From the NCBI GenBank assembly GCA_001872485.1, contig MNWK01000036.1, forward strand, positions 1-32,591: a stretch of 32,591 nt of DNA, in the 5' to 3' direction. The DNA is from Parcubacteria group bacterium CG1_02_44_31. GTDB taxonomy: Bacteria; Patescibacteriota; Minisyncoccia; UBA6257; Brennerbacteraceae. The notes under the pieces are model-generated. The model was not told where the DNA came from and did not search any database. It saw nothing but the letters and a program-made list of their open reading frames with translations. Below, piece by piece: positions 12,950 through 21,491 of the stretch. The position numbers and the translations under genes are program-made. The first letter of the stretch is position 1. Each line of letters starts with the position of its first letter.

Positions 12950-15247
12950 ATGCGTAGGAGCACAAATACGGAGCAGGAAGCGATACGGAATTTTTGCATC
13001 ATCGCGCACGTGGACCATGGTAAGTCAACATTGGCTGATCGGTTTTTGGAATTGACGCATACGGTTGAGCCGCGCCAGATGAAACCTCAATATCTTGACC
13101 AATTAGATTTGGAAAGAGAGCGGGGGATTACAATAAAAATGGCGCCTGTCAGGATGGTATACCATCCTGACCGCGGAATGACGCGGACTGAAACGCGGAA
13201 TGACGCGGAAAACGAATTATTATATAAAGATATAACTTATAAAATACGAGGTGCTGTTTTTGAGGTTAGAAAATATTTGGGCTTGGGTCATAAGGAAAAT
13301 GTTTATCATAATGCATTAGTGCAGGAATTTAATAAAAAAGGATTACAGTTTGAAACTGAGAAGAGTATTAGTATTTTTTATAATGGCAAAAAAGTTGGCA
13401 ATTATCAGCCGGATTTTATTATTGAGAATAAAATTATTATTGAATTAAAAGCATTGCCTGAGATTGGCCGCCCGCAAATTGAGCAATTATGGAGTTATCT
13501 TAAGGGTTCTGATTATAAATTGGCCTTGCTTGTTAATTTTGGCAGTAAAAATCTTGAAATTAAAAGAGTTGTATATGATATCGCTCGTTTTCCGCGACCT
13601 TCTGCGTCAATTCCGCGAGGTTCCGCGCAGGTTGAGTATATACTCAACCTGATTGATACTCCCGGCCACGTTGATTTTTCGTACGAAGTATCGCGTTCGC
13701 TTGCCGCGGTTGAAGGAGCGATTCTTTTGGTTGATGTAAGCCAGGGCATTCAGGCGCAGACATTGGCAAATCTTCACCTTGCGCAACAACAGGGGCTGGT
13801 CATTATTGGTGCGTTGAATAAAATTGATTTGCCGCAACCGCCTGAAAAGATTGAAGAATTACGCATAGAACTTGCGCATCTGTTGCATCAGAGTCCTGAA
13901 GATATTTTTTCCATTTCCGGAAAAACAGGGCAGGGGACAGAGGAATTGCTTCGCGCAGTTGTGCAAAAAATTCCATGCCCCCAAGGCAATCGCGACGCGC
14001 CGCTTACCGCATTAGTTTTTGACTCGCTGTACGACGCGTATAAAGGCGTTGTGGCGTTTGTGCGAATTATGGACGGAACAGTTTTGAAAAATGACCGCAT
14101 TCAATGCATGGCAACCGGAGCGCAGGCCGTAGCGATTGATGTTGGTTTTTTTAAGCCGCTGCTTGTTTCCTGCGATGCGTTGTATGCAGGGGAAATCGGA
14201 TACATCGCAACGGGAATTAAAGACCCGAATGTGGTGCGGGTAGGCGATACTGTGACGCTTGCCGACGCGTGTGCGGCAGCATCCCAAAGCATCACGCCGC
14301 TTCCAGGATACCACGAACCCCAGCAAGTGGTGTTTGTCAGCATGTATCCTGCGCAAACTGATGACATTGACGCGTTGGCAGACGCGTTGGGAAAACTCAA
14401 ACTTAATGACGCATCGCTTTCATTTACGCGTGAACGTCAGGAAATGCTCGGCCAGGGTTTTCGCATTGGTTGTTTGGGAACGCTTCATTTAGAAATTATC
14501 AAAGAGCGCTTGTTTCGCGAATACGGGCTTGAACCGATTATCACTGCGCCATCTGTCAAATACGAGGCAGTGCTCAAAAATGGAACTGTTCGCGACATAT
14601 TTACACCAAGCTATTTGCCAACGTCTGACCAATTGCTTTCTATACGCGAACCATGGGTGCACGGAGAGATTATTACGCCAAGTGCGTATGTGGGCGGAGT
14701 GCTGAATGTTATCCACGCACGGCGCGGAGTTTCTGGGAATGTTTCAAATATTTCATTGGGAAATGTGTTGGTTCAGTTTGATATGCCGCTTGCTGATGTT
14801 ATTTTGGATTTTTACGATAGATTGAAAAGCGTATCGCAAGGATACGCGTCCGTGAGCTATGAGGTTACTGAATGGATGCAGGGGAATCTGGTCAAGCTGG
14901 ATATCTTGGTGCACGGTGAAGTAGTGGATGCATTTTCGCGCATTGTGCCAAAAGAAAAAGCCCGTGCCTTGGGATTGGCGATTATTGAGAAATTAAAAGA
15001 ACTGCTGCCGCCGGAAGTATTTAGCGTGCCGATACAAGCAGCTATCGGGTCTGAAATTATTGCGCGCGTGACGCTTGCCGCTTCGCGCAAGAATGTGACC
15101 GGGCATTTGTACGGCGGAGACCGGACGCGCAAAATGAAGTTATGGAAAAAACAGCAAAAAGGCAAAAAGCGCAGGGCGCTCTACGGCGTTGTAGATGTCC
15201 CTGCATCAATCTTTTTTAAGGTTTTTCAGATGACAAAAAACGAGTAG
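12950..15247 (+). CDS. lepA: Elongation factor 4 (LepA) with a 152-codon in-frame insertion
   Basis: CIIAHVDHGKSTLADRF, LERERGITIK, LIDTPGHVDFSYEVSRSL, LNKIDLP; LepA C-terminal domain MKLWKKQQKGKKR. 765 aa versus about 600 expected. Confidence 0.95.
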   Translation: MRRSTNTEQEAIRNFCIIAHVDHGKSTLADRFLELTHTVEPRQMKPQYLDQLDLERERGITIKMAPVRMVYHPDRGMTRTETRNDAENELLYKDITYKIRGAVFEVRKYLGLGHKENVYHNALVQEFNKKGLQFETEKSISIFYNGKKVGNYQPDFIIENKIIIELKALPEIGRPQIEQLWSYLKGSDYKLALLVNFGSKNLEIKRVVYDIARFPRPSASIPRGSAQVEYILNLIDTPGHVDFSYEVSRSLAAVEGAILLVDVSQGIQAQTLANLHLAQQQGLVIIGALNKIDLPQPPEKIEELRIELAHLLHQSPEDIFSISGKTGQGTEELLRAVVQKIPCPQGNRDAPLTALVFDSLYDAYKGVVAFVRIMDGTVLKNDRIQCMATGAQAVAIDVGFFKPLLVSCDALYAGEIGYIATGIKDPNVVRVGDTVTLADACAAASQSITPLPGYHEPQQVVFVSMYPAQTDDIDALADALGKLKLNDASLSFTRERQEMLGQGFRIGCLGTLHLEIIKERLFREYGLEPIITAPSVKYEAVLKNGTVRDIFTPSYLPTSDQLLSIREPWVHGEIITPSAYVGGVLNVIHARRGVSGNVSNISLGNVLVQFDMPLADVILDFYDRLKSVSQGYASVSYEVTEWMQGNLVKLDILVHGEVVDAFSRIVPKEKARALGLAIIEKLKELLPPEVFSVPIQAAIGSEIIARVTLAASRKNVTGHLYGGDRTRKMKLWKKQQKGKKRRALYGVVDVPASIFFKVFQMTKNE
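13172..13627 (+). mobile_element. In-frame GxxExxY-family (PD-(D/E)XK nuclease) element within lepA
   Basis: Encodes YKDITYKIRGAVFEVRKYLGLGHKENVYHNALVQEF...YQPDFIIENKIIIELKAL; ends CGCGGAA...TTCCGCG, inner TIR CGCGGAAAACGA (13204-13215)/TCGTTTTCCGCG (13585-13596); 456 bp, divisible by 3. Confidence 0.85.
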
Positions 15248-17919: not shown

Positions 17920-17950
17920 GTCTTCGCAAGAACTTTGTTCTTGCGAAGAC
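17920..17950. repeat. 31-bp palindrome GTCTTCGCAAGAAC-TTT-GTTCTTGCGAAGAC
   Basis: 14-bp perfect arms; reverse-orientation copy at 25314-25344. Confidence 0.9.
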
Positions 17951-18485: not shown

Positions 18486-18562
18486 TATGCCCCGTTAGAA
18501 ATCTCGCCCGCGCGCAAGCGCGCCAGTAGGGCTTATGGGCTGGCTATTTCTAACAGGGTATA
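18486..18562. mobile_element. MITE-like element E4 (77 bp)
   Basis: TATGCCCCGTTAGAAAT...ATTTCTAACAGGGTATA; shares the outer TATRCCCYGT / ACAGGGTATA motif with E1-E3. Confidence 0.65.
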
Positions 18563-18566
18563 GATA

Positions 18567-18776
18567 TTATGAAAAGAAAAAGCGACCTTGTATGTCAGGG
18601 TCGCTTTTTTTTGGGGGACGGCGTTCTCCTCGCGGACCATAGGTCCGCTTGGAAATCAGGACGCCGTTTTGATAAAATCGGTGAGTTATTCTCACCGGCT
18701 GAGGCAGCGCTGCTGCCTCATACCCTACCTCAGCCCACAATTGAGCTGGGGGATTGCGATAAATTTTATCTTTCAT
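18567..18776 (-). CDS. Small (<=69 aa) hypothetical protein in hairpin-rich cassette
   Basis: Strong SD AAAGGAGGTACC-ATG on the minus strand; MKDKIYRNPPAQLWAEVGYEAAALPQPVRITHRFYQNGVLISKRTYGPRGERR; 3' end overlaps a terminator hairpin. Confidence 0.6.
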   Translation of the reverse strand: MKDKIYRNPPAQLWAEVGYEAAALPQPVRITHRFYQNGVLISKRTYGPRGERRPPKKSDPDIQGRFFFS

Positions 18777-18852
18777 GGTACCTCCTTTCGCAATCTTGTT
18801 GACAATATCATAATAACGGCATTTTAGTCAATGCAAGGTATTAAAGTATTAT

Positions 18853-18881
18853 TTGACGAATATGGCGCATTATGCTATATT
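18853..18881 (+). promoter_or_regulatory. Sigma70-type promoter for lipoprotein gene
   Basis: TTGACG (18853-18858) - 17 nt - TATATT (18876-18881). Confidence 0.7.
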
Positions 18882-18963
18882 TTATCAGGCCAAAGTTCTC
18901 TCATAATCTAACCTCGAATCGGTTGGCCTGCCGATTCGGATAATTCTGCTAGGAGGCAGAAAA

Positions 18964-19650
18964 ATGAAAACCAATTTTAAGTTTTTTGTTTTTCTCGTGA
19001 TCGTGAGCATGGTGCTCGCGGCCTGCGGTCCGGCGACCAAAGCCGAGATCGCGCCAACCGTCATCCCGCAAGACCTACCCAATGGGGATTATTATGTAAT
19101 TTACGCCCCGGGGCAGATCGGAGCCGATGAAATTTTTAACTCTTCGGTTCCTATAGTCCTTGCAGTCAGCGGCGTAGCTGCCGCTGATGACTTAACCGTC
19201 TGGGGGGTTGCAAATGACCCACTGGCGGTCTCGGTCGTCGTGACCATTGTGGCTTATACCGCCTGTACGGCAAGCGAGCCGTGCCGCGGCGCAATGGTCG
19301 TGGGGATTGAGGGGGCTGTGGATTACATCCACAGCATTGCCCCAGCGGCAAGGGTTGCCGTCATCGATGGCTGGACAGCAGCCGAGTTCAACCCCCGCAA
19401 GGGTACCTTGCATTTGTGGGATGACTACACAAATGCAAGTGTTTCATGGATGGTCACCGGAGGCGGCGGCTGTAAGTATGATTTCTTTGGGGCATTTGGT
19501 CCCCAAAGATATTCATACTTTACAACAGATCCCTGTTCACGACAGGGTATTGTGGAGGCTATCAATCAGTTCGTCAAAGAACTGGAGGATGATGGCTATC
19601 GTATTTTTGGAGAGATGTTAGAATGGATGTTAGATATCTTTGGGGGATAA
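18964..19650 (+). CDS. Putative lipoprotein of unknown function
   Basis: MKTNFKFFVFLVIVSMVLAACGPATK signal with lipobox LAAC; SD CTAGGAGGCAGAAAAATG. Confidence 0.75.
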   Translation: MKTNFKFFVFLVIVSMVLAACGPATKAEIAPTVIPQDLPNGDYYVIYAPGQIGADEIFNSSVPIVLAVSGVAAADDLTVWGVANDPLAVSVVVTIVAYTACTASEPCRGAMVVGIEGAVDYIHSIAPAARVAVIDGWTAAEFNPRKGTLHLWDDYTNASVSWMVTGGGGCKYDFFGAFGPQRYSYFTTDPCSRQGIVEAINQFVKELEDDGYRIFGEMLEWMLDIFGG

Positions 19651-19669
19651 TAAGATACCAAACATCCTT

Positions 19670-19700
19670 GCAGGCAGAGCATAGCTCTGCCTGCGTTTAT
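19670..19700 (+). terminator. Rho-independent terminator after lipoprotein gene
   Basis: GCAGGCAGAGC-ATA-GCTCTGCCTGC followed by GTTTATTTTT. Confidence 0.8.
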
Positions 19701-19719
19701 TTTTAATCAGGGTATGCCA

Positions 19720-20664: not shown

Positions 20665-21048
20665 ATGTCTGACAAATACGCAAAAATTATTACAGAAATT
20701 GAAAAATTGAGCGTGCTTGAGCTTGCCGAATTGGTTAAAGAACTTGAAGAAAAGTTTGGTGTCAAAGCGCAAGCGGCAGTTGTCGCAGCGCCGACTGCAA
20801 ACGCAGGAGGCGAAGGCGCTGGAGCAGGCGAGGAAAAGAGCGCGTTTACCGTGATGCTCACAGCAGTTGGCGACCAAAAAATCGCAGTTATCAAGGCTGT
20901 GCGTGACATTACCGGCCTTGGGCTCAAGGAAGCAAAAGATTTGGTTGACGCAGCACCGAAAGCAGTCAAGGAAAATGTTTCCAAGGACGATGCGGAAAAT
21001 ATCAAAAAACTTTTGACAGAAGTCGGAGCTAGTGTTGAATTGAAATAA
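20665..21048 (+). CDS. rplL: 50S ribosomal protein L7/L12
   Basis: [72 protein letters not shown]. Confidence 0.97.
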
Positions 21049-21138
21049 AGCTCTGCGAATCACATCCGCGACATTCATATTATTTTATCCACGCACCAGT
21101 ACTGTTTAATGGGACCGGTGCGGGATTTACCTGCGCAC

Positions 21139-21181
21139 CCGTCCCGCACTAGTTCCGCTTAGCGGAATTGGTGCGGGACGG
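21139..21181. repeat. Large hairpin CCGTCCCGCAC...GTGCGGGACGG
   Basis: 11-bp perfect outer stem enclosing TTCCGC/GCGGAA. Confidence 0.85.
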
Positions 21182-21353
21182 CTTGCCTTGTTAGATAAAC
21201 AGCGAAACTGTATTTAATAGGGTTTACCCTATTAAATTGCCTTCAGCACTATTTAACAGGGTGAAGGTTCCGCGTCTCGAAGCCACGAAAAAGGAGCCGC
21301 GAATGTAAACCCGCGGGGCTCCACATGACTATACGTCAGTATAGTATAACGCA

Positions 21354-21387
21354 ACCATTCTCATATTCTTAAGAATATGAGAATGGT
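21354..21387. repeat. 34-bp perfect palindrome ACCATTCTCATATTCTTAAGAATATGAGAATGGT
   Basis: Perfect dyad; related copies at 22453-22486 and 22798-22831. Confidence 0.92.
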
Positions 21388-21404
21388 CATGAATGCATGC
21401 GCTT

Positions 21405-21437
21405 GAATTTGTTTTTATGCAGCATAAAAACAAATTC
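21405..21437. repeat. 33-bp palindrome GAATTTGTTTTTATGC-A-GCATAAAAACAAATTC
   Basis: 16-bp perfect arms. Confidence 0.9.
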
Positions 21438-21491
21438 TCGTGAAATGCCAAAAAACCCGCACTGCGGATTTTTTTGGTATACTGAATATAT

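Follow-up and report, generated by a model that had tools for sequence, protein, structure and literature searches.

Palindromes inside open reading frames (ORFs) are known from the Rickettsia palindromic elements and similar repeats, which are repeated insertions. In GORS, a feature of some RNA virus genomes, the coding RNA folds better than its synonymous shuffles over the whole ORF. ORF-wide mRNA structure is also a property of single genes in E. coli operons, where it correlates with translation efficiency (PMC5318159). Type I toxin mRNAs, for example those of Helicobacter pylori (PMC6733600), combine a small ORF with a structured message and folded translation signals, and act as a metastable switch.

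Here we describe a cassette of two divergent ORFs whose coding sequences are chains of hairpins. It lies at positions 18567-19700 of a 32,591-nucleotide contig (MNWK01000036.1; the window) from Parcubacteria group bacterium CG1_02_44_31. As in GORS, the coding RNA surpasses its synonymous shuffles along the entire ORF, but the structure here belongs to individual genes on a bacterial chromosome, and a genome has one or a few of them. The RNA genome of a replicating virus is ruled out, as the genes sit on a chromosome beside ribosomal and tRNA genes and match no phage or viral contig. As in E. coli, structure at the level of the ORF is a property of the single gene. However, when 83 ORFs from 100 kb of E. 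coli K-12 were examined as a control, one lay below -6 kcal/mol per 120 nt and the minimum was -6.5, whereas hairpin-chain genes reach about -10 to -18 and, unlike the E. coli ORFs, have discrete perfect hairpins and a strong Shine-Dalgarno (SD) sequence. The cassette also resembles type I toxin mRNAs in its small ORF, structured mRNA and folded translation signals, but here there is a hairpin chain instead of a metastable switch, and ORFs extend up to 283 codons. In type I systems, a small hydrophobic toxin comes with an overlapping antisense RNA; the minus ORF of the cassette does not overlap the plus gene. In contrast to the repeated Rickettsia elements, each hairpin of the cassette is unique, and together they fill the entire gene.

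Results

Lysyl-tRNA-synthetase-like and tRNA-Thr genes border the cassette at one end, rplJ-rplL at the other. Its features, in window coordinates, are as follows.

18567-18776, minus: 69-codon ORF with SD and hairpin chain
18574-18612, T runs on both strands: terminator-like stem within the 3′ end of the minus ORF
18618-18667, minus (minus ORF): outer stem ACGGCGT/ACGCCGT around hairpin GCGGACC..GGTCCGC (18632-18648)
18679-18697, minus (minus ORF): hairpin CGGTGAG..CTCACCG
18700-18720, minus (minus ORF): hairpin TGAGGCAGC..GCTGCCTCA
18781-18786, minus: minus-ORF SD (AGGAGG), lying in the loop closed by helix 18788-18795 / 18752-18759
18802-18831, minus: promoter-like site TTGACT-18-TATTGT for the minus ORF
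18853-18881, plus: promoter-like site TTGACG-17-TATATT, with TG ahead of the second hexamer
18915-18938, plus: 5′ UTR hairpin CGAATCGG..CCGATTCG
18944-18961, plus: hairpin TTCTGC-TAGGAG-GCAGAA, carrying the SD AGGAGG (18951-18956) 7 nt 5′ of the ATG
18964-19650, plus: lipoprotein-like ORF of 228 aa with signal peptide, lipobox LAAC and a hairpin-chain coding sequence
19164-19192, plus: hairpin AGTCAGCGGC..GCCGCTGATGACT, codons for VSGVAAADD
19315-19335, plus (coding sequence): hairpin GCTGTGGATtacATCCACAGC
19346-19360, plus (coding sequence): hairpin CGGCAAgggTTGCCG
19369-19383, plus (coding sequence): hairpin GGCTGgacagCAGCC
19407-19439, plus (coding sequence): 12-bp hairpin CTTGCATTTGTG..CACAAATGCAAG
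19474-19520, plus (coding sequence): long hairpin AAGTATGAtttCTTTGGGG..CCCCAAAGataTTCATACTT
19531-19547, plus (coding sequence): hairpin CCCTGTtcacgACAGGG
19669-19695, plus: plus-gene intrinsic terminator with a 12-bp stem and a T run

All palindromes quoted in the initial annotation were found, at 18618-19520, as were the strong SD sites that it had claimed for both genes. It had also given both genes intrinsic terminators. The plus gene has a normal one (19669-19695), but that of the minus ORF lies inside the ORF and precedes its stop codon. A transcript ending at this terminator (18612-18574) would lack a stop codon, which makes it doubtful that the minus ORF encodes a protein. The ORF runs through the terminator to reach its stop, and termination there, if it works, would yield a non-stop message or an sRNA. 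The minus ORF, which is divergent from the plus gene and does not overlap it, is either a second, smaller member of the class described below or a structured sRNA that carries a frame resembling an ORF.

Counting perfect stems that were 6 bp or longer, we obtained 12 for the 1,134 bases of 18567-19700. Among 836 other stretches of equal length from the same 527-kb genome, the mean was 1.83 (standard deviation 1.65) and one contained 12 or more. Folding z-scores, computed on mean MFE per 120 nt against codon shuffles that keep the protein and the codon counts, were -8.1 for the plus ORF (-45.8 versus -34.7 kcal/mol) and -7.6 for the minus ORF (-55.3 versus -31.7 kcal/mol), placing both about 6-9 standard deviations under their own shuffled versions. 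The remaining 25 genes in the window ranged from +0.8 to -3.5. With dinucleotide shuffles, z was -8.0 for the plus ORF and -9.5 for the minus ORF, compared with -2.0 for the adjoining rplJ. The initial annotation had staked its reading on a difference from synonymous shuffles, and this difference is large.

BLAST against ~510 kb of the genome revealed no copies of either ORF. The hairpins are single-copy, and insertion of palindromic repeats (RPE/REP/MITE type) was rejected for this reason. Rfam matches in the window at or above the gathering score were tRNAs only. From its sequence, the plus ORF has the N-terminal signal peptide and lipobox cysteine of a lipoprotein (MKTNFKFFVFLVIVSMVLAAC). 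Searches of Pfam, PHROGs, NCBIfam, PADLOC and PDB assigned neither cassette protein to a family; for the lipoprotein, the PHROG and NCBIfam matches were sub-threshold and to signal peptides. Phage, plasmid, viral-contig and genome-contig searches with the lipoprotein gave no match, and an AlphaFold model built without an alignment had a pLDDT of 43.7 and was uninformative. We found one weak reciprocal relative, L002 in genome G001 (29-30% identity over ~60 residues, E 2e-5), which is mildly structured (z -2.6 to -3.3).

Several other features of the surrounding DNA were observed. A MITE-like family of palindromic elements with ends CCCCGTTAGAAAT..ATTTCTAACGGGG and variable middles recurs within the window genome, at 18486-18560 of the window and in L004, L006 and L007, and similar ends lie upstream of rplJ in G001 (L095). 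The element at 18486-18560 contains GTTAGAA..TTCTAAC, which is inverted relative to RYYYAAC / GTTRRRY, and inspection revealed no such site after the gene; an integron gene cassette was rejected. A perfect hairpin, GTCTTCGCAAGAAC-TTT-GTTCTTGCGAAGAC, has many intergenic copies (window 17920-17950, L005, L007, L025, L042). An 8-bp direct repeat, CAGGGTAT, flanks the cassette at 18554-18561 and 19707-19714 and may be due to chance; a similar sequence, CAGGGTATAGNTATTATG, lies ahead of the gene in L005. The intergenic stretch 21040-21480, 3′ of rplL, is a strong hairpin chain (z -7.6 for its composition). In a LepA-like ORF (12950-15247), a PDDEXK_3 nuclease-superfamily domain at residues 93-207 interrupts the GTPase domain and could be an in-frame insertion.

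We looked for this design in six patescibacterial genomes (about 1,400 ORFs) and in 71 SD-led genes. Most of the genomes are metagenome assemblies, the relatives were read in part (400 of 680 kb for G035), and E-values between orphan proteins are weak; several tests were made, and the main effects are large. The design recurs in other genera and families, including one closed genome. These genes share a single-gene arrangement, their own sigma-70-type promoter, a strong SD and an orphan exported or membrane protein; GC is often high, and most have a terminator. With z of about -5 to -12, the design was found in the window genome (G000 L011), G004 (L073), G003 (L208 and L209), G001 (L057) and G035 (L127), with z of -12, -11 and -10 for L011, L073 and L127, respectively.

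In the scan of the window genome outside the window, 1 of 186 ORFs of at least 300 nt (227 kb) fits the design. This ORF, L011 16687-17112, encodes 141 aa with a transmembrane (TM) segment and a P/T-rich region and has nine perfect stems in 426 nt. A 47-codon TM ORF with an SD-like AAGGAG and extreme folding (L047 1316-1459, minus strand; delta -22.7 kcal/mol) is a possible further member. At the top of 625 ORFs from three genomes (627 kb) stands L073 14557-15030 of G004, from another genus of the same family. Like the window gene, it is a lipoprotein gene upstream of rplJ. The 5′ end of this hairpin gene is duplicated at L073 14330-14560, and the duplicate is followed by a run of N, which represents a scaffolding gap or a tandem duplication. 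In G003, the place upstream of rplJ is occupied by the 3′ part of an ORF that weakly matches L073 (pairwise E 0.007); this genome also carries two additional hairpin genes, L208 and L209. In G035, which belongs to another family, L127 6496-7347 has 60% GC, against AT-rich flanks of roughly 22-34% and a genome of about 28%. It has a TTGACG-17-TATAAT promoter-like site, an SD and a terminator. Since L127 resides in a complete genome (AP024681.1, Candidatus Parcubacteria bacterium KatS3mg097), a binning artefact is unlikely.

Strong SD sequences are rare in these genomes. Allowing every start within the first 40 codons, 75-86% of ORFs of at least 600 nt in G000, G001 and G004 have no SD of at least 4 bases, and AGGAGG precedes about 1% of ordinary ORFs of at least 200 codons. 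Stand-alone genes led by an SD are uncommon, and their structure exceeds that of ordinary ORFs: in G000, delta was below -6 kcal/mol per 120 nt for 36% of SD-led genes versus 1.1% of the others. The top five of all 1,436 ORFs ranked by perfect-stem density were SD-led. When 200 genomes of the order were searched for the pattern TATAAT, 15-45 nt, AAGGAGG, 4-10 nt, ATG, 118 had matches, and the reversed-control pattern gave few. Of the 71 SD-led genes from the order, 14% fell below -6 (median delta -1.65). Thus, hairpin chains mark some SD-led genes and are clearest in the window's family and in G035. A search of 10 genomes for the anti-SD pattern TGGATCACCTCCTTT gave no match; 16S ends vary or may be missing in these genomes.

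Other SD-led genes were also noted. L228 572-1567 (minus strand) and L199 1166-2200 (plus strand), which by their sequence look like tryptophanyl-tRNA synthetase and glutamine synthetase, exceed their flanks in GC by 22 and 13 points, which suggests that these genes were acquired and retained their own SD. A cluster of small SD-led orphan genes, many with about 50-56% GC, lies at L060 5513-8627 of G001.

A DNA palindrome is strand-symmetric, while G-U pairs aid one RNA strand only; thus, a bias towards folding of the sense strand points to RNA. We compared sense and antisense energies, relative to shuffles, for the top 40 ORFs in a strand-neutral ranking by perfect-stem density. This strand-symmetric preselection was used because selecting on sense energy biased the test (Stouffer -5.4). 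The sense strand folded better than the antisense strand in SD-led hairpin-rich genes (Stouffer -3.54; 17/21 negative), and palindrome-bearing control ORFs, many of them on palindromic repeats, gave a Stouffer value of -0.39 with 8/19 negative. In the two window ORFs alone, the bias was non-significant (z -0.54 and +0.23), so we infer the RNA reading for them from their class. Together, the far worse folding of synonymous shuffles, the recurrence in other genomes and the sense-strand bias support the proposal of the initial annotation that RNA structure has shaped which codons are used.

We also compared orthologs. G113, from the genus of G035, contains a partial ortholog of L127 with 46% identity over 141 residues. 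Divergence by codon position was 0.46/0.30/0.65, as would be expected for a protein under purifying selection, and third-position GC differed between the copies, at 0.60 versus 0.41. Since an earlier null also destroyed shared ancestry, we adopted a strict null in which the 29 identical codons were fixed and the differing codons permuted among synonyms, with a variant that used resampled synonyms. The G113 copy was more stable than this null (z -3.7, 0/300 permutations; resampled synonyms z -2.5, p 0.007), and its hairpin centres correlated with those of the G035 copy (r=0.46; p 0.007 and 0.043, strict nulls). By the same strict nulls, neither the number of conserved base pairs nor covariation at that level was significant in this pair (p 0.21 and 0.37). 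Thus, folding strength and hairpin positions persist though most codons differ. For two very distant pairs, the window gene with L002 and G003 with G004, conservation of hairpin positions was non-significant, and the conservation seen there by eye (VSGVAAAD/IDGIAIAD; SEF) failed the statistical test. Homologues without conserved hairpins would have weighed against the initial annotation; one ortholog pair keeps the positions, and the two very distant pairs are non-significant. The ortholog data support maintenance of folding and give limited support to exact hairpin positions.

Discussion

We suggest that hairpin-chain genes are a so far undescribed class shaped by its own RNA fold. We came across no report of genes like these in the open-access literature that we searched, although this does not prove that there is none. 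The reading that we favor, at a probability of roughly 55%, is that the plus gene stands alone, has an accessory role and encodes an exported lipoprotein, and that it belongs to a class whose coding RNA is selected for rows of sense-strand hairpins, besides selection on the protein.

By leaving few single-stranded entry sites for RNases, the hairpins would make a short single-gene mRNA long-lived. They may also slow or pace ribosomes during synthesis of the exported protein, and the strong SD could conceivably compensate for mRNA structure. Our best guess is that they let mRNAs for exported proteins last long and be translated slowly. The correlation reported for E. coli (PMC5318159) makes an effect on translation plausible and does not imply high protein output. 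The idea that start regions are open was dropped, as predicted pairing at -20..+3 was 0.43-0.80.

An origin of the hairpins at the DNA level or by mutation appears less likely. Palindromes could form cruciforms or single-strand folds that, for example, help a mobile cassette to recombine, be taken up or be packaged, with the RNA fold as a by-product. Such a role would fit the often perfect stems, the cassettes' own promoters and often raised GC (60% versus about 28% for G035 L127), and the repeat CAGGGTAT near both cassette edges. It is made improbable by the G-U-dependent sense-strand bias of hairpin-rich SD-led genes, by hairpins that span the whole ORF instead of sitting at its ends, and by the lack of attC-like ends, repeated copies and viral or plasmid matches. 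Alternatively, template-switch repair could perfect near-palindromes in dispensable DNA, where ORFs drift and hairpins are useless. As this explanation would have it, intergenic palindromes abound in the window genome, hairpin chains also occur in certain intergenic stretches (21101-21400 of the window), and the encoded proteins are orphans. We nevertheless consider it unlikely. The frames stay open for 141-283 codons and are accompanied by SD, terminators and either signal peptides or TM segments; divergence by codon position follows the pattern of purifying selection; the sense-strand bias is missing from palindrome-bearing control ORFs; and the G035 and G113 copies keep their folding despite their difference in GC.

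The structure could also be a property of SD-using, GC-richer donors from which the genes were recently acquired. Strong SD and high GC do distinguish hairpin-chain genes from their host genomes, and the order contains enzyme-like SD-led genes, L228 and L199, with GC well above their flanks. While a foreign origin would explain SD and GC, it does not explain folding beyond codon-shuffled controls; E. coli genes at similar GC are unlike these, and our searches found no donor homologue or transfer signature, so we give it little chance. None of these alternatives alone accounts for the synonymous folding excess, the sense bias and the ortholog persistence together. Most speculative, and quite improbable, is the idea that Patescibacteria have a dedicated set of "combed" mRNAs whose conserved product is the hairpin array itself, with the exported protein changing around it. 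At the extreme, the RNA would act beyond ordinary gene expression, for example as a very long-lived or even transferred message for the SD-dependent ribosomes of a partner cell.

Coding-wide RNA structure this strong is known from RNA viruses and not as a discrete class of bacterial chromosomal genes. If selection on coding RNA for sense-strand hairpins is confirmed, these genes would be natural experiments in which one sequence meets the demands of a protein and of an RNA fold together. The class would have a computable signature, consisting of a single gene, a strong SD in an SD-poor genome, a hairpin array and an exported orphan product. In ultra-small bacteria, it would also open a direct way to ask how hairpins in coding regions affect protein export and how long a message lasts.
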